DNA of 54,529 nucleotides. Origin: Candidatus Woesearchaeota archaeon (GTDB taxonomy: Archaea; Nanobdellota; Nanobdellia; Woesearchaeales; JACPBO01). Both the position numbers and the translations under genes were made by a program. Positions 13,951-34,869 of the stretch are shown here, piece after piece. Where the stretch lies: the NCBI GenBank assembly GCA_016180285.1, contig JACPBO010000003.1, forward strand, positions 1 through 54,529, read 5' to 3'. The notes under the pieces were generated by a model. The model worked only from the letters and a program-made list of their open reading frames with translations. It ran no database searches and was not told the DNA's origin. Each line of letters opens with the position of its first letter. Within the stretch, counting starts at the first letter, position 1.

Positions 13951-14571
13951 TTAATTTCTTTTTAATTCATCTAAAATCTTGCTCTTTTTAAGCTTTAGCT
14001 GCCTCGGGTTTAGCTCAAGATATTGCATGTCTTTAAAATTTCTTATTATTTCAATTAATCTGTATTTAAAATGTTCTATTTTGTATTTTTTGAGCAGCTC
14101 AAAGTATTTTTTAAAATTCACATCTGTAAAACACAATAAAGTCATGATGTCGATCCTGTCTTTTCCGCCCTTAACTGATTTTTCCCTGTCAATTTCTGCG
14201 CCTTGCTTCAGTATAAGCAAAACTTCAGGAATTACAACATTAAAGTTCTCTACTTTTGTGGAATAGCTCTTAATATCTTCCACAGGAATCGCCAATTTTG
14301 AGAAAAAAGGGGCATAAATATCAACATCAATCTCTTCAAAGCTTATTTCATATTTTTTAAGATTGTCATTCTTTTTCAGATTATAATTTTCCTTCAGGTA
14401 TTCCAATTGCTTCAAATCTGTTAATGCTATATCGAGGTCTTTTGATTTATGCAGCCTTGTCCATAGATAAGCAGCCCAGCCGCCAATGACTATAAATTTG
14501 AATGGCTTTTTATTTAATTCAACAAGAATGTTCCAGCTCTTTTCCGTCAATAAGCTATTCCAGAATTCCAT
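13951..14571 (-). CDS. AbiEii-like nucleotidyltransferase (putative toxin), module 1
   Basis: The 206-residue protein carries a nucleotidyltransferase signature: GG at residues 30-31 followed by KSKDLDIAL with D45 and D47, then a third acidic strand VDIYAPFFS. Its C-terminal half is helical. This is the compact family often annotated as AbiEii-type toxin or minimal nucleotidyltransferase. Its 5' end overlaps the 3' end of the winged-helix gene by 17 bases, with antitoxin first and toxin second, as in AbiE systems. Family members transfer nucleotides to RNA; the target here is unknown. It ends one base before the surface-cassette gene at 13949. Confidence 0.8.
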   Translation of the reverse strand: MEFWNSLLTEKSWNILVELNKKPFKFIVIGGWAAYLWTRLHKSKDLDIALTDLKQLEYLKENYNLKKNDNLKKYEISFEEIDVDIYAPFFSKLAIPVEDIKSYSTKVENFNVVIPEVLLILKQGAEIDREKSVKGGKDRIDIMTLLCFTDVNFKKYFELLKKYKIEHFKYRLIEIIRNFKDMQYLELNPRQLKLKKSKILDELKRN

Positions 14572-15139
14572 TTAACCGCTTCTCCAGGGCTTTTAAAAAC
14601 TCCTTCGCATACCATTCTTTTAAATTCCACAAATCAGCAAATAACTGGGCTGTTGTTGAGCTTTTGCCATATTTATCTATGGCGTTGTCTTTTTTTAACA
14701 CAAATAAGTTGGGGCTGTTGATGTTTTTTGGAAATCTTTTTTCAATTTCTTCATCGCCATAAACATAAACTTCTGAATAATCAGCAGGGACATCCTTGAA
14801 TTTAAACTTATAGGCAGAATATGCACCATATACAATATTGTTGGGCATCTCAGATTCTATTTGGGTAACGGGCTTGTTGACCCGTGTTTTATATATTATA
14901 TCTTTTTCGAAATTCCGTATACTTGCCCAATAATATAAAATCTTTTTTAAATCAATAATACGAAAACCTCTTAGCCGGATATCTACTGAATTCATCTTTA
15001 CCAGCGGCTTTAAGGCAAGATTTACTGTGCTTAATGAGATCATCAAATTTTTTGATAGTTCGGACTGCGTAAAATTGTACTTTTTCTTTTCCATAAACTG
15101 GTACAACATTTCCCTGTATACGAATTCGATCTTTTTCAC
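14555..15139 (-). CDS. winged-helix AbiEi-like regulator (putative antitoxin), module 1
   Basis: The 194-residue protein has a winged-helix N-terminus (about residues 8-65, with SELSKNLMISLSTVNLALKPL as helix-turn-helix). A second domain, with VYGAYSAYKFKF and a YGDEEIEKRFP strand, resembles the antitoxins that accompany AbiEii-type nucleotidyltransferases. The start is a GTG at 15137-15139, with a TATA box (ATTTATAAAT) 22-31 bases upstream, so the message is probably leaderless. A perfect palindrome at 15207-15227 could be its operator. It overlaps the toxin gene by 17 bases, consistent with coupled translation and autoregulation. Confidence 0.78.
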   Translation of the reverse strand: MKKIEFVYREMLYQFMEKKKYNFTQSELSKNLMISLSTVNLALKPLVKMNSVDIRLRGFRIIDLKKILYYWASIRNFEKDIIYKTRVNKPVTQIESEMPNNIVYGAYSAYKFKFKDVPADYSEVYVYGDEEIEKRFPKNINSPNLFVLKKDNAIDKYGKSSTTAQLFADLWNLKEWYAKEFLKALEKRLNGILE

Positions 15140-15160
15140 GATTTAAATTAAAAAGTCTTT

Positions 15161-15227
15161 ATTTATAAATCTTTCGATTTTATAAGAAAGATATTTAAGT
15201 TAGATCATAGTAACTTAAAGTTACTAT
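15161..15227 (-). promoter_or_regulatory. promoter and palindromic operator of TA module 1
   Basis: The minus-strand TATA box ATTTATAAAT lies at 15161-15170. Upstream of it is a 21-base palindrome at 15207-15227 (ATAGTAACTT, one A, then the reverse complement). This spacing suits an activator or autorepressor site for the winged-helix protein. Confidence 0.5.
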
Positions 15228-15299
15228 ATAGAAACTAACAGTATGAGTGAGCTTTCGCTTTTTGGTGAAAGGTATAAAAGTAATCGATAGAGTGTATAA

Positions 15300-15320
15300 T
15301 TTACCAATCTTCCCAGGAAG
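15300..15320. repeat. direct repeat, copy 1 (relic of a gene 3' end)
   Basis: Twenty-one bases (TTTACCAATCTTCCC then AGGAAG) are identical to 17049-17069, and five more match after one mismatch. On the minus strand they read as the last codons Ser-Trp-Glu-Asp-Trp-stop of the surface protein at 17050-19488. No gene remains attached here. This copy and the other bracket the AbiE-like module, so it looks like an insertion or recombination footprint. Confidence 0.8.
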
Positions 15321-15342
15321 ATGTTTAAGGGATTTTTTATAT

Positions 15343-16269
15343 TTATAGCTCCATTTCGATTTCTTTAAGGAATTTTTGCAAAAATAGCCTGAGCCTTGCT
15401 GCAAAATCTTCAAACTCTTCTTTTTTCAATTCCTGAACTATTAAGTGCTTTACTTCATCATAAGAAAAATCAATATTGCCGGTTTTTTCCCTGATTAGTA
15501 TGAGGCTCTCCTTGTATTTTCCATAATATTTGGTTGCGAAAGCTATTTTTTCTTTTGCCTCTTCTGCCAAATCTTCCGGTTTTATCTTGAATCTTTGATA
15601 AATAAAAAAAAGATCAATGGCATCTCTTGATTTTTTGGCTTTTCTTGTAACTAAAGAGCGTATCTTTTCTGCTGCAATTTCTTTGATATCATAAGCAAGA
15701 AGCTCCCTTTTTTCATAAAAAACAATAAGCTCCTGAAAGTAAATCTTTTCCTCGCTTCTTAGGCTCTCTTTTATCAGGGAGAGCGTTTCCCTTGATTTTA
15801 CTTCAAACTTAATTTTTTCCAGAAAGTTAATTTGCAGCTTTATGAAAGAAAAGGCGCCTGTAAAAACCGACTCGTACCAGACTTTAAATGTAACAAGCTT
15901 GTTATTGCTCCCTATCTCCACATATTTTCGGTCAGCCTTATCAAAAACAAAATTTAAGCCAATAGCTTCAAGCTGTTTTCCAAGATCATTTATCTTCTCC
16001 TTGCAAAGTTTCTTTATCTGGTTTGTAGATTTGTTCTCCAATAATTTTTGATTTGCAAACGTAAAATCCAAATCTTCCGAAAATCTGAAATAATCAAAAT
16101 AGATTTTTGCCAGGCAGGTTCCCCCTTTGAAAATGTACTCCTCAAGATTTAATTTTGATAAAAGCACATTCAGGTAAAAATCCTTTTCAATAAGCTCAAG
16201 AGAGGCTGTTCTTGCCTTCTCGCTGATAAACAGCAGAAATTCCCTCAGCTTAGTTTTGCTTATTTCCAT
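15343..16269 (-). CDS. AbiEii nucleotidyltransferase toxin, module 2
   Basis: The 308-residue protein has the AbiEii hallmark motif: FKGGTCLAK (GGT at 49-51) followed by RFSEDLDFT (residues 62-70), whose S-E-D-x-D forms the metal-binding nucleotidyltransferase site. It also has the conserved EIAAEKIRSLVTRKAKKSRDAIDLFFI region (about residues 197-223; E-x2-A-x-KIR and RDAIDL). Length is normal for the family. In characterised AbiE systems the protein is a GTP-dependent nucleotidyltransferase toxin countered by AbiEi. It lies 107 bases downstream of the AbiEi-like gene, and that gap holds two large inverted repeats, unlike the overlapping layout of module 1. Confidence 0.9.
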   Translation of the reverse strand: MEISKTKLREFLLFISEKARTASLELIEKDFYLNVLLSKLNLEEYIFKGGTCLAKIYFDYFRFSEDLDFTFANQKLLENKSTNQIKKLCKEKINDLGKQLEAIGLNFVFDKADRKYVEIGSNNKLVTFKVWYESVFTGAFSFIKLQINFLEKIKFEVKSRETLSLIKESLRSEEKIYFQELIVFYEKRELLAYDIKEIAAEKIRSLVTRKAKKSRDAIDLFFIYQRFKIKPEDLAEEAKEKIAFATKYYGKYKESLILIREKTGNIDFSYDEVKHLIVQELKKEEFEDFAARLRLFLQKFLKEIEMEL

Positions 16270-16305
16270 TGTAAAATCTGATTCGCCCTCTTTTCTGTTG
16301 TACTG

Positions 16306-16340
16306 AAAAAAGTTGAAAATTTCTCATTTTCAACTTTTTT
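16306..16340. terminator. 15-bp perfect hairpin with T-run between AbiEi and AbiEii
   Basis: AAAAAAGTTGAAAAT (16306-16320) and its exact reverse complement (16326-16340) flank a five-base loop. Read on the minus strand, the hairpin follows the antitoxin gene and ends in six T before the toxin gene. It looks like a terminator or attenuator that would lower toxin expression. Confidence 0.6.
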
Positions 16341-16344
16341 GGCA

Positions 16345-16393
16345 TATTGGAAATTAAGTTATAAATAGGAAATTTTTTACTTAATTTCCAATA
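16345..16393. repeat. 15-bp inverted repeat overlapping the AbiEi stop codon
   Basis: TATTGGAAATTAAGT (16345-16359) is the reverse complement of 16379-16393, with a 19-base loop. The right arm encodes the last residues (Leu-Glu-Ile-Lys-stop) of the AbiEi-like protein. The left arm is therefore an inverted copy of that gene end. Confidence 0.6.
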
Positions 16394-16964
16394 ATCTGCC
16401 GTATCTGGGCAGATATTTTAAAAATATTTGCTTGCTGAATTTATATTCCTTCAGGTCAATGCCCCTTTTTAAGTAAATGAAGTCCAATAATGTTTTTTCC
16501 AGATCGCTGTAATTTAAAAAAAGCTTATTTGAAGTTTTTATCCTTTTAAGCCCAAAAAAAAGGGAGGGCTTTACTTTAATGAAAAGAAAGCTTGTGCCGG
16601 CAATTTTCATAGGCTTGAGCCTGTTAAACTTGTCATTGATAACATAGTTTACTGGAAAGACTTCATGTGTAAGATTCAGGAATTTTAATGCTGAATTCAG
16701 CCCAAAATACCATTTTACTCCCTTAAGCTTCAACCCTGCTGACAATAATTCATACGGAGAGTATCCGATTCCATTGAGCTTTTTTTCTTCATAGCTTTTA
16801 AGGTAGTATATCCCCCTGAAGATAGTTGCCAGGTAGCCTTTGTTCAGCAAAAGTTTTCTTAAAGAGAGCCTGTTAAACCCGTACTTATCGGCAAGGCTGT
16901 CTAAATCTCTTCTTAGTATAATCTTGCTTTTCATCTCTCTTAAGGCAATCTCTGTTTTTTTCAT
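16377..16964 (-). CDS. AbiEi-like winged-helix antitoxin, module 2
   Basis: The 195-residue protein has the AbiEi layout. A helical N-terminus and wing end in a Y-L-x3-FRGIYYL motif (about residues 44-55), followed by an effector domain with WYFGLNSALKFLNL and a late DLEKTLLDFIYLKRG motif, which is typical of AbiEi-type antitoxins and transcriptional repressors. AAAGGTGG lies about nine bases upstream of the ATG, and a TATTTAAAT box lies at 17001-17009. It is the first gene of the pair with the AbiEii toxin. Its stop codon is embedded in an inverted repeat. Confidence 0.82.
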   Translation of the reverse strand: MKKTEIALREMKSKIILRRDLDSLADKYGFNRLSLRKLLLNKGYLATIFRGIYYLKSYEEKKLNGIGYSPYELLSAGLKLKGVKWYFGLNSALKFLNLTHEVFPVNYVINDKFNRLKPMKIAGTSFLFIKVKPSLFFGLKRIKTSNKLFLNYSDLEKTLLDFIYLKRGIDLKEYKFSKQIFLKYLPRYGRLLEIK

Positions 16965-31351: not shown

Positions 31352-32185
31352 ATGCTGATAAAGGCAAGAGTTGACTTCAAAAAGCCCAATTTTAAGGCGC
31401 TGAAAAGAAAGAAATTCACAGCTGTCGACATGCATGTTCATTCGCGCCATTCTGACGGCATAAACAAGGTTAAAAGCATTCTAAACAGGGCCAAAAAGCT
31501 CGGAATTGGAATCGCCATAACAGACCATAATGAAATTAAGGGCTCAATAGAAGCGCACAAAAGCGGAAAAGTTCTCGTCATTCCTGGCATTGAAACAAGC
31601 TCAAGCGAAGGCATTCATGCATTATTTTATTTCTATACGATAAAAGACCTTAAGGGTTTTTATAACAGCGTTGTTCTTCCGAACAAAGTGAGGAGGGACT
31701 TCTTTTTAAGAATAGGCATAAAGGATATCGTGAAGGCATCCTCTGAGTTCAAATGCATAATGGCAATTGCGCATCCTTACGCCCCCGGCTGGACAGCTAT
31801 GTTTAATAAGGTTCACAGCAAAATTGTCAATAAAAAGCTGATAAACTGCTTTCACGCAGTTGAAGTTTTGGCTGCTTCGAATTTAAGAAAAAGAAACCTG
31901 AAGGCATTGGATCTGGCAGAAAAAATAAAAAAGCCGATAACTGCAGGATCAGACGCCCACACATTGAGGGAACTGGGAAGGTCAGTCGCATATGTAAAAA
32001 AAGAGCAAGGTTTAAATGGGTTCTTGAATTCTATCATAGATAACACCAACTTTGTTGTTGGAAAAGAGAGGAGATTTTTGCCCAATGCAGCCTCGCAGAC
32101 GCTTAAAGTAAGGAAACATTTAAGAAAGCCTTATGTCCTGCTTAAAAGAGGCGTAGGGTATTTCAGGGCAATTTCAAGAAGGTAG
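31352..32185 (+). CDS. PHP-domain metal-dependent phosphoesterase
   Basis: The 277-residue protein has PHP motifs in order: DMHVHSRHSDG (His28, His30, Asp35), AITDHNE, PGIETSS, IAHPYAPGW, and a late GSDAHTL. These are the metal-binding motifs of the polymerase-and-histidinol-phosphatase fold. Related small PHP proteins are phosphatases or nucleases with varied substrates; nothing here decides which. Its stop codon (32183-32185) is separated by one base from a tRNA 5'-half relic. A basic C-terminus (RKHLRKPYVLLKRG) could bind nucleic acid. Confidence 0.85.
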   Translation: MLIKARVDFKKPNFKALKRKKFTAVDMHVHSRHSDGINKVKSILNRAKKLGIGIAITDHNEIKGSIEAHKSGKVLVIPGIETSSSEGIHALFYFYTIKDLKGFYNSVVLPNKVRRDFFLRIGIKDIVKASSEFKCIMAIAHPYAPGWTAMFNKVHSKIVNKKLINCFHAVEVLAASNLRKRNLKALDLAEKIKKPITAGSDAHTLRELGRSVAYVKKEQGLNGFLNSIIDNTNFVVGKERRFLPNAASQTLKVRKHLRKPYVLLKRGVGYFRAISRR

Positions 32186-32186
32186 T

Positions 32187-32234
32187 GCCCCTATAGTTCA
32201 GCCTGGATAGAAAAATTTAAATATAAGGGCACCA
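32187..32234 (+). pseudogene. truncated tRNA relic (acceptor plus D arm only)
   Basis: From 32187 the sequence reads like a tRNA 5' half: acceptor GCCCCTA, U8-A9, and a consensus D arm GTTCAGCCTGGATAGAA (G10, A14, G18-G19, A21). It then breaks off at about position 24-25 and enters an AT-rich stretch that also serves as TATA box for the next ORF. At 32224-32230, TAAGGGC pairs with the acceptor (one C-A mismatch) and is followed by ACCA. So acceptor and D arm are present while anticodon and T arms are missing. The ACCA match could be chance. Confidence 0.5.
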
Positions 32235-32244
32235 CTCCAACATT

Positions 32245-33360
32245 ATGAGGCTGCTTTTATCAAAAGATTCAAGAAAAAGGTTGTTTTATTTTTTAAAGAA
32301 AAAGCGCAATGCAAAAAATTTTTCAGATCTATCAAAGAAGATAAATGTTTCACTTAAAACACTAAAAAAATGGATGTATGCTGAACTTTATCTGCCCGAT
32401 AAAATAATTCCTAACGATGTTGGTCCGTTGGAAATATTGGACAAACAAGAAAACAAGTGGGGAGCCATAAAGGGGGGTAAAACTGGAGGAAAAAGATGCG
32501 CCGAAGTTATGAAACACAGGCTTGGGAAAGAAGCATATTCTTATCTAATGGCACAAAGGGGTAAAAAAACGATCAATACGCTTTATAAAAGATATAAAAA
32601 AGAAGATTTAATGAAACTGATTTTTAATGGCAAAATGAAGAAACGAGAACTGCAAAGCAAGAAATTAGAGCAAGAAAACGATTCTTTTTTCACCAATAAT
32701 AAGGTTATTTTTGATTTAGAAGAGGTCAATTATAGTAAAATTGATAGAGCCAAACATATTATGTTTCCAAAAGAAATGACAAAAGAACTTGCAGAAGAAA
32801 TCGGCATACATCTAGGAGATGGCTGTATGTCATATAACAAAAATTATTTTTCAGTGAAAACCAACAAAAAAGAAGAAAGATATGTCACTGATTTTTTATT
32901 TCCACTATACAAAAAATTATACAATCTGGACCTAAAATTAATGCGATTAAGAAGTGTTTCGGGATTTGAAGTTTATTCAAAAGCTATTTGCGAATTTAAG
33001 AATAAAATTATTGGTCTGCCCTATGGAAAAAAAGTGGAAAGAATAGAGATACCCCAATCCGTGTTAGAGACAAAAAACAAAGAGGTATATCGCTCACTTA
33101 TAAGAGGCTTATTCGACACTGACGGCAATGTATCGGTTATTAGAGGAAATTACCCGAGAATATCGATAACGATAAAGTCTAGAAAGTTAATTGAGAAATT
33201 AAATGATATATTAAGAAAAATGGGATTTATTCCCTATTCAAATAGCGAGTACTTATCATTAAATGGCCCAACAATGTTTAAAAAGTGGCTAAAAGAGATA
33301 AATTCAAATAATCCGAAAAATATCAACAAGCTAAATTGGGCGAATAGTTTAGTTGGATAG
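32245..33360 (+). CDS. LAGLIDADG homing endonuclease overlapping tRNA-Arg
   Basis: The 371-residue protein has a helix-turn-helix near residues 25-45 (DLSKKINVSLKTLKKWM) and two LAGLIDADG motifs, LAEEIGIHLGDG (about 183-194) and LIRGLFDTDG (about 284-293), each with a metal-binding Asp. It is therefore a single-chain homing endonuclease. A TATA box (ATTTAAATATA) lies about 20 bases before the ATG. The last codons, encoding WANSLVG and the stop, lie inside the 5' part of the tRNA-Arg gene: the stop TAG is in the D loop. It sits between a tRNA relic and an intact tRNA, which suggests the tRNA gene is its target or home. Confidence 0.85.
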   Translation: MRLLLSKDSRKRLFYFLKKKRNAKNFSDLSKKINVSLKTLKKWMYAELYLPDKIIPNDVGPLEILDKQENKWGAIKGGKTGGKRCAEVMKHRLGKEAYSYLMAQRGKKTINTLYKRYKKEDLMKLIFNGKMKKRELQSKKLEQENDSFFTNNKVIFDLEEVNYSKIDRAKHIMFPKEMTKELAEEIGIHLGDGCMSYNKNYFSVKTNKKEERYVTDFLFPLYKKLYNLDLKLMRLRSVSGFEVYSKAICEFKNKIIGLPYGKKVERIEIPQSVLETKNKEVYRSLIRGLFDTDGNVSVIRGNYPRISITIKSRKLIEKLNDILRKMGFIPYSNSEYLSLNGPTMFKKWLKEINSNNPKNINKLNWANSLVG

Positions 33361-33410
33361 AATTCGGGTTTGCGGAACCCGAGACCGGGGTTCAAGTCCC
33401 CGTTCGCTCA
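33338..33410 (+). tRNA. tRNA-Arg(GCG)
   Basis: The cloverleaf is complete. Acceptor GGGCGAA (33338-33344) pairs with TTCGCTC (33403-33409), with one G-U. The D arm runs GTTT to GAAT with GG in the loop. Anticodon stem CGGGT/ACCCG (33365-33369, 33377-33381) has loop TTGCGGA with anticodon GCG at 33372-33374. T arm CGGGG-TTCAAGT-CCCCG follows, and the discriminator is A at 33410. No CCA is encoded and a T-run follows directly. No intron is present. It reads CGC/CGU Arg codons. Its first 23 bases are shared with the endonuclease ORF. Confidence 0.95.
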
Positions 33411-33504
33411 TTTTTATCATTAACGAAAGTGAGATAGCTTGTAGGGCGTTTGAAAGCGAATAACATTTAAATACATATGTGCATTAATAATTAAGGGGGC
33501 AATA

Positions 33505-34869
33505 ATGAAGCTAGTTGCAATCGGCTATGACAATTTCCTTAAAAAAGATGTAAAGAAGATAAACTTTGAAAGCAGCGATCTCCCTAAAGTCCAGCTCTTC
33601 AATACAGCCGATGTAATAGCAGGCAATCCTAATTCCAACATTGCGATAGCATTTGTTTACAACTGGAAAACAGATAATGCCCCTGAAGATATAAGAAATC
33701 TGTTTCAAAAGCTGTCGAATTATGCTGCGCTGACTGGCTACTGGCGCACTACAAACGGAGCAAGATATGCATTTGCAAATATTCTTGCAAACCCAAACAT
33801 AAACAAGATTTTATTGTTGGTTTTTGAAAATGAAGATAACGGCCATCTCTTAGCCGATGCATTAAGGAACTTCTGGAAAAATGGAATTAATGAAAACAAC
33901 GTGATAATCAGCTCAAAAGCCCCGAATCCAAAATTCGAGCAGGTTCCGAAAGAAGCATTGGAAAGAATAAGGCAGCAATCCGACTTATTAATTTTAAAGA
34001 ATATAAAGGGCAATTATGATGAAATTGAGGCCTTGTTGAAAGAATTGATCCAGGAGCCGGAAAATGCAATCAGCTTAAATGAATTTGAAAAATTAAGTTT
34101 AGAATTCCACTCAAACACGATAAAGAACAACATGCTTTATGATGATGGCGCAAGGTTTGAAAAGCCTTTTATCCTGGACCTTTCTACATCAGCCCAGAAT
34201 GTCAGGTTTGAGCAGAAGAATTTGATTGCATCTGTTGGGCAGTCAGTGCAGGCAAGCAATCTTAAAGATGCCTTGGAAAACACAGTGGCTTTCATCTTAA
34301 AAAACGGCTCTGCAATGCTTGATCAAAGAAACATTATAACAATGGAATGCAGGTCGATAGCAATAACCATATTAAACCCTCTTGAAAAAATCCCGGACAA
34401 TTTTTCAAAAGAATATCTTGACAAATACCTCGACGAATTCCTTAACGGCAGGGGAGAGAAGCTTGATGAATTCGTTTATACGTATCATGAAAGAATATTC
34501 AAAAAATGGGGCAACCAGCCTGAAAAAATAATTGCTCTGCTAAAGCAAAACCCAAATACAAGAAGGGCGTTAATAGCATTATGGGATCCTGATGACGATC
34601 TGGGAAACGAAAGCCCGCCGTGCCTTGACTTCATATGGGCGGTTATAAGGGATAATTCCCTTGAGCTTCATGTTGTTTACAGAAGCCACCATATTGCAAC
34701 TGTAACAGAAGACGGAAAATTATTGCCCGGGGAAGGCGCTTTTGTCCCGAATATTTATGCAATTGCTTCATTGCAGCATACTATGGCGAAAGCCTTAAAT
34801 ATTAAATCCGGCCCATTAGTTTTGACAGACTTCAGCGGGCATCTGTATGTCAGCAGAATAAAGTGTTAA
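33505..34869 (+). CDS. thymidylate synthase family protein with N-terminal DUF4346-like domain
   Basis: The 454-residue protein ends in a thymidylate-synthase-like domain: an RALIALWDP motif, SPPCLDF with candidate nucleophile Cys373, a YRSHH segment in place of the usual QRSxD, FVPNIYAIASLQ and a terminal DFSGHLY. The first 170 residues resemble the DUF4346 domain found with archaeal thymidylate synthases (a YWRTTNGARYA motif and an AGNP loop). Reductive methylation of dUMP to dTMP is the likely role. It is one base from tmk, and dut is also in the window. SD-like AAGGGGG precedes the ATG. Confidence 0.8.
   Translation: MKLVAIGYDNFLKKDVKKINFESSDLPKVQLFNTADVIAGNPNSNIAIAFVYNWKTDNAPEDIRNLFQKLSNYAALTGYWRTTNGARYAFANILANPNINKILLLVFENEDNGHLLADALRNFWKNGINENNVIISSKAPNPKFEQVPKEALERIRQQSDLLILKNIKGNYDEIEALLKELIQEPENAISLNEFEKLSLEFHSNTIKNNMLYDDGARFEKPFILDLSTSAQNVRFEQKNLIASVGQSVQASNLKDALENTVAFILKNGSAMLDQRNIITMECRSIAITILNPLEKIPDNFSKEYLDKYLDEFLNGRGEKLDEFVYTYHERIFKKWGNQPEKIIALLKQNPNTRRALIALWDPDDDLGNESPPCLDFIWAVIRDNSLELHVVYRSHHIATVTEDGKLLPGEGAFVPNIYAIASLQHTMAKALNIKSGPLVLTDFSGHLYVSRIKC

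Follow-up and report, generated by a model that had tools for sequence, protein, structure and literature searches.

The closest described counterpart of the arrangement reported here is the tRNA-Thr(GGU) locus of Caldiarchaeum subterraneum, in which a 5' tRNA fragment (nt 1–27), an insert with a single ORF and a reconstituted tRNA follow each other on the same strand (Sugahara et al. 2012, PMC3293823). The 5' part of the reconstituted tRNA-Thr is foreign, the 3' half is unchanged, an intron has been gained in the D arm, and strains free of the insert exist (PMC3293823). SVMProt placed the ORF, designated 'b' (813 bp), among the DNA recombinases, and a plasmid of the pNOB8 type was held responsible for the event (PMC3293823). 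The layout, including the relic of nt 1–27, is that of the locus described below, and it concerns one locus only.

Replacement of gene ends has been reported for mobile ORFs in fungal mitochondria (atp6 of Allomyces; atp6, atp9, cox2 and nad3 of Glomus), which encode LAGLIDADG or GIY-YIG endonucleases and bring a foreign gene end in place of that of the host (PMC3630166). The likeness lies in the native gene end, which remains as a relic close to the sequence of relatives; the difference is that those are mitochondrial protein genes, whereas here the genes are archaeal chromosomal tRNA genes, often replaced over their whole body, on the 5' or the 3' side. The free-standing homing endonuclease gene (HEG) segB of phage T4 lies among tRNA genes and drives the inheritance of the tRNA region (PMC2988022), but it is a phage gene of the GIY-YIG type with an intergenic target between tRNAs and has no pair of tRNA relic and replacement. 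The LAGLIDADG HEGs of archaeal rRNA introns likewise belong to the LAGLIDADG_3 family, and two of their products, I-Tsp061I and I-DmoI, are structural matches to the protein found here; unlike these intron-borne genes, the present ORF is not contained in an intron and adjoins or overlaps a tRNA gene. No prior description of a HEG/tRNA family of this kind was found in a search of mainly open-access literature.

The window, which is the whole stretch of 54,529 nucleotides that was analysed, is contig C3 of the genome of a DPANN archaeon (G000; 1.33 Mb, 96% complete). A genome of the same genus, G001, was used as the reference for the empty site. The features of the locus, all on the forward strand, are as follows.

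31352..32185 (+): upstream flanking gene, which we take to be PHP-domain-like (our own naming); 88% identity to the G001 protein, directly 3' of which an intact tRNA-Arg(GCG) is present
32187..32212 (+): relic, GCCCCTATAGTTCAGCCTGGATAGAA, of the 5' end of the former tRNA-Arg(GCG), 26 nt, equal to nt 1–26 of the G001 tRNA
32216..32225 (+): TTTAAATATA, which reads as a TATA-like box, some 25 nt 5' of the ATG
32245..33360 (+): predicted LAGLIDADG homing endonuclease ORF, 371 aa, ATG to TAG, with two LAGLIDADG motifs
32788..32823 (+): first LAGLIDADG motif, LAEEIGIHLGDG, with D192
33091..33126 (+): second LAGLIDADG motif, SLIRGLFDTDGN, with D293
33338..33360 (+): overlap, in which the final 7 codons and stop of the ORF are tRNA nt 1–23
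33338..33410 (+): intact intronless replacement tRNA-Arg(GCG), acceptor GGGCGAA/TTCGCTC, complete, 60.7 bits
33441..33449 (+): candidate remnant, from the 3' side, of the former tRNA (GTAGGGCGT, compared with GTAGGGGCGT), in the expected place; p = 0.08
33505..34869 (+): downstream flanking gene, with a syntenic orthologue in G001

The insert is approximately 1.25 kb, and the LAGLIDADG gene is the only sizeable ORF within it. LAGLIDADG_3 (PF14528) is found in the ORF at 40.4 bits (cut-off 22.5), and both D192 and D293 are invariant in an alignment of 31 sequences. The protein is helical over its N-terminal 150 residues, the start of which is HTH-like, a feature also of the clade at tRNA-Thr(CGT). 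In the AlphaFold2 model (pLDDT 86) the top compact endonuclease matches are I-Tsp061I (TM 0.71 by target) and I-DmoI (about 0.67). On the strength of its Pfam domain, its motifs, its predicted fold and its presence or absence at the site, the ORF is a LAGLIDADG homing endonuclease, which would be expected to cleave site-specifically. By the rules for archaeal promoters, TTTAAATATA is the probable leaderless promoter of this gene. A 6-bp inverted repeat, GTGCCC at the start of the relic and GGGCAC at 32226–32231, spans the relic and this promoter (32186–32231) and is perhaps due to chance. Elsewhere in the window, at 13951–16964, is a cluster of nucleotidyltransferase-like and winged-helix ORFs, which by eye resemble AbiE-type pairs.

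The endonuclease ORF does end in the D loop of the tRNA, as an earlier note on this DNA had it, the stop TAG being at 33358–33360 and the 23 bases from 33338 to 33360 being common to both genes. The same note had drawn attention to nine bases, TGGATAGAA, that occur in the relic and again at the junction, and these are indeed present at 32204–32212 and 33354–33362. The relic to which they pointed is real and is 26 nt long; the nine bases are a motif conserved in the D arm of tRNA-Arg and not an independent target duplication.

The comparison of tRNA-Arg(GCG) loci with and without the ORF that had been called for is provided by G001. At the orthologous place there is one tRNA-Arg(GCG) between the same flanking genes and no endonuclease, the order being the upstream ORF, 4 nt, the tRNA with a 31-nt intron in its anticodon loop, and the orthologue of the downstream gene. 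The flanks of the site are 87–88% identical between the two genomes. The relic at 32187–32212, which covers the tRNA from nt 1 to the D arm, matches the 5' end of the G001 tRNA-Arg(GCG) at 26/26 nt, and this identity ends exactly at the start of the endonuclease's own leader. Because the match is to the orthologous tRNA and is complete, the relic can be taken beyond chance as the front of the former resident tRNA. A genome scan of G000 found no mismatch-free copy of it other than this one, and the tRNA at 33338–33410 is the sole tRNA-Arg(GCG) found in that genome. The nine bases at 33441–33449 were considered as a 3' remnant of the old tRNA and rejected; the position fits, but the match is not significant.

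The tRNA that has taken the place of the old one differs from it in both halves. The acceptor strand of the relic is GCCCCTA, as in G001 (GCCCCTA/TAGGGGC), against GGGCGAA in the present tRNA, and between the present tRNA and that of G001 there are 17 exon mismatches, across both halves. The acceptor strand at the 3' end, TTCGCTC, fits the new 5' half and is unable to pair with the relic; the 3' half is therefore foreign too. That both halves, including the acceptor stem, are divergent means that the cassette carried a whole tRNA and not a 5' half. The locus shares two features of the Allomyces and Glomus mobile ORFs: part of the native gene persists as a relic that matches the relative, and the gene is rebuilt from divergent incoming sequence, the new tRNA matching the complete model. 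It had been supposed in the earlier note that only a replacement 5' half is brought in, the 3' half being the host's own. Such a model suits other loci: L128, where an identical 22-nt 5' half is found on both sides of the HEG, one copy lying immediately 5' of it, and the Caldiarchaeum tRNA-Thr, in which the insert reaches to nt 27 and leaves the 3' half as it was (PMC3293823). Here it is contradicted by the acceptor strands and by mismatches over both halves, and the tRNA bodies are replaced at the Gly-GCC and Arg-TCG pairs described below as well, which leaves it improbable. A search of 353 genomes revealed no donor lineage for the GGGCGAA tRNA, and that acceptor is absent from the other Woesearchaeales tRNA-Arg recovered from them.

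Five HEGs of the family that are not inteins were found in G000 and G001, and each of them is present at a tRNA gene in one genome and absent there in the other; G000 has two (Arg-GCG, Gly-GCC) and G001 three (Thr-CGT, Arg-TCT, Arg-TCG). At Thr-CGT, a divergent intron-bearing tRNA precedes the HEG in G001, and the HEG stop is followed at once by a 3' portion of the former tRNA, identical to the intact intronless tRNA of G000. At Arg-TCG, a 15-nt 5' relic, equal to the G000 tRNA, is followed by the HEG and a complete divergent tRNA in G001, where G000 has one tRNA. At Gly-GCC, the tRNA of G000 has another acceptor and a D-loop intron, with the HEG downstream, and the G001 tRNA is plain. At Arg-TCT, the G001 tRNA is interrupted in its D loop, by an intron between CTGG and ATAGAG, and a HEG follows it directly; in G000, which lacks the HEG here, the intron is in the anticodon loop. 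The exons of this pair are equal (0 mismatches) and the difference between the tRNAs is limited to the introns. The tRNA body has been replaced at 4 of the 5 sites, with 14–19 exon mismatches between the genomes. The control is a set of about 11 tRNA pairs, clearly orthologous and not near HEGs, which have 0–4 exon mismatches; a few best matches in the table they come from are non-orthologues. At any one locus an assembly error is still conceivable, these being single genome bins, though the pattern recurs in many genomes.

The D-loop introns in the HEG-linked tRNAs Gly-GCC (L078, G000:C26, 2034–3283) and Arg-TCT (L079, G001, 2853–2953 in HEG orientation) are not present in the HEG-free orthologues of these tRNAs. 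HEG insertion may be a route by which non-canonical tRNA introns arrive. Gain and loss of introns also occurs independently of HEGs: in the HEG-free tRNAs Lys, Gln, Val-TAC and that of L023 (called Phe), a whole intron of 27–46 nt differs between G000 and G001 with 0 exon mismatches. The presence of an intron was rejected as a mark of HEG-linked tRNAs, since nearly all tRNAs at control loci carry one and HEG-free orthologues gain and lose them too.

Matches to the family are present in 93 of 193 order-level relatives, some of them being inteins. LAGLIDADG matches at G000:C36:32933–35146 lie within an open frame of 2070 aa, which is probably an intein-bearing protein. There is a tRNA within 50 nt of the HEG in 44 of 72 loci, within 350 nt in 52 of 72, and overlapping it in 24 of 72. 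For control ORFs of similar size, taken from 400 kb of the same genomes, the corresponding counts are 2/208 within 50 nt and 4/208 within 350 nt. About a quarter of the family members have no nearby tRNA with the detectors used. The usual position of the tRNA is at the 3' end of the HEG, in either orientation, and two lengths of overlap recur, 10 nt where the genes are in the same sense and 20 nt where they are antisense, because the stop codons sit in conserved parts of the tRNA, as TAG at nt 8–10 or as TGA opposite the T-loop TTCA. The overlap of protein and tRNA, present at 24/72 loci, is thus a recurrent by-product of the HEG abutting a tRNA without spacer and is not necessarily functional.

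A second sample, from a search with the Arg-TCG clade and sharing part of its loci with the first, gave 56 of 79 within 50 nt of a tRNA, with 35 overlaps. Its records are named Woesearchaeota, Pacearchaeota, Nanoarchaeota, Diapherotrites, Micrarchaeota and Aenigmatarchaeota, among others, and the HEG clade upstream of tRNA-Arg(TCG) is present in several DPANN lineages. Two archaeal-looking HEG/tRNA loci (L213, L240) are under records titled Aminicenantes or Falkowbacteria, which are probably mislabelled bins. The clades of the HEG follow tRNA identity: on the HEG tree there are 31 changes of tRNA isotype, for which some labels were hand-curated, where all of 300 shuffles gave at least 35 (0/300), and 16 changes of the side of the tRNA, where all of 300 shuffles gave at least 19 (0/300). 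Viral contigs contained distant LAGLIDADG matches only, at 21–33% identity, and a single-protein scan of genome contigs found no match. That the element is not an intron, as had been suggested, is borne out by the family, in which none of the loci checked has a HEG inside a tRNA intron (0 loci with a tRNA only spanning the HEG). At the main locus the ORF is not between two exons, and a compact intact tRNA adjoins it.

Relics were sought on the far side of each HEG by comparison with its flanking tRNA (52 loci, p < 0.02). Same-sense matches were found at 10/52 loci, with 1/52 in the opposite-sense control. Of these ten, nine are incomplete tRNAs, all (9/9) of the half and on the side that the geometry predicts; the tenth, at L033, is a second complete tRNA. 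In G000 and G001 the halves kept are 5' at Arg-GCG and Arg-TCG and 3' at Thr-CGT. In the Arg-TCG clade a 5' relic is kept in 6/40 loci (each p < 0.01), and at L280 (archaeon GW2011_AR20, CP010426.1) a 5' half of about 30 nt is followed by the HEG and a full tRNA. A recognisable relic is kept at a minority of HEG loci only. In L225, also of the Arg-TCG clade, an intact tRNA-Arg(TCG) is followed in turn by a 5' tRNA relic, the HEG and another tRNA-Arg(TCG). In L146 (1772–2880 in HEG orientation) a long, near-identical direct repeat flanks the HEG, from the 3' end of the tRNA to about 65 nt into the downstream flank, which suggests a recent event at the same locus.

A fragment and a reconstituted tRNA around an insert are the hallmark of elements with a tRNA-targeting integrase, of the SSV or pNOB8 type (PMC3293823), and the locus might be the remnant of one, an origin of the sort put forward for the Caldiarchaeum insert. 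This is quite improbable, in that the insert of about 1.25 kb has the LAGLIDADG ORF alone and no integrase gene, relics are 5' or 3' according to the side of the HEG, and the LAGLIDADG family itself tracks tRNA genes. Tandem tRNAs are known in these genomes, and an unrelated HEG could have inserted between the copies of a duplicated tRNA; with a single tRNA at the G001 site, linkage to tRNAs across the family, and the half and side of the relic predicted by orientation in 9/9 relic loci, this is very improbable. That the 5' relic serves the cell as one half of a trans-split tRNA, as archaea have split tRNAs and it ends near a known split region, can practically be dismissed, because no 3' partner (TTCAAATCTCCGTAGGGGC, up to 3 mismatches) exists elsewhere in G000 save one unrelated 3-mismatch site, and an intact tRNA-Arg(GCG) is present.

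The preferred reading, which we hold to be highly probable, is that a free-standing LAGLIDADG HEG and a tRNA gene of its own move together as a cassette, presumably through cutting of the resident tRNA gene and repair from a donor. The earlier note's proposal of insertion in the D arm by an element that supplies substitute tRNA sequence agrees with the empty site in G001 and with the same geometry at many independent loci. On this model the enzyme would cut the uninterrupted tRNA-Arg(GCG) gene, probably in the D arm, and the break would be mended from a donor molecule that holds the endonuclease and a tRNA-Arg(GCG) presumed resistant to cleavage. The left end of the break would persist as the 26-nt 5' relic and the incoming tRNA would take over its function. 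As the incoming tRNA serves the cell, the host would retain a working tRNA and could not easily lose the cassette. A HEG upstream of its tRNA would leave a 5' half, from a break in the D arm, and one downstream would leave a 3' half, from a break near the variable or T region. The family would likely account for the single Caldiarchaeum case also, judging from the common layout.

A wider reading has an even chance of being right: that several DPANN lineages harbour a large family of tRNA-borne LAGLIDADG cassettes, specific to isoacceptor and cut site, which continually put their own versions in place of the tRNA genes of their hosts and are a main source of odd tRNA gene structure there. The odd structures to which that reading extends, with the same balanced odds, are foreign isoacceptors, non-canonical introns such as those of the D loop, and orphan halves that possibly seed split tRNAs.

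The family would also be a source of many candidate meganucleases with predictable natural targets, in the tRNA D arm and the variable/T region. If the preferred reading is true, the cassette is a selfish element, a parasite of essential tRNA genes that is retained through the tRNA it supplies, comparable to a natural gene drive. It would offer a possible route to the horizontal replacement of tRNAs, to introns at unusual positions and to orphan tRNA halves, and would bear on the origin of the disrupted and split tRNA genes of archaea.
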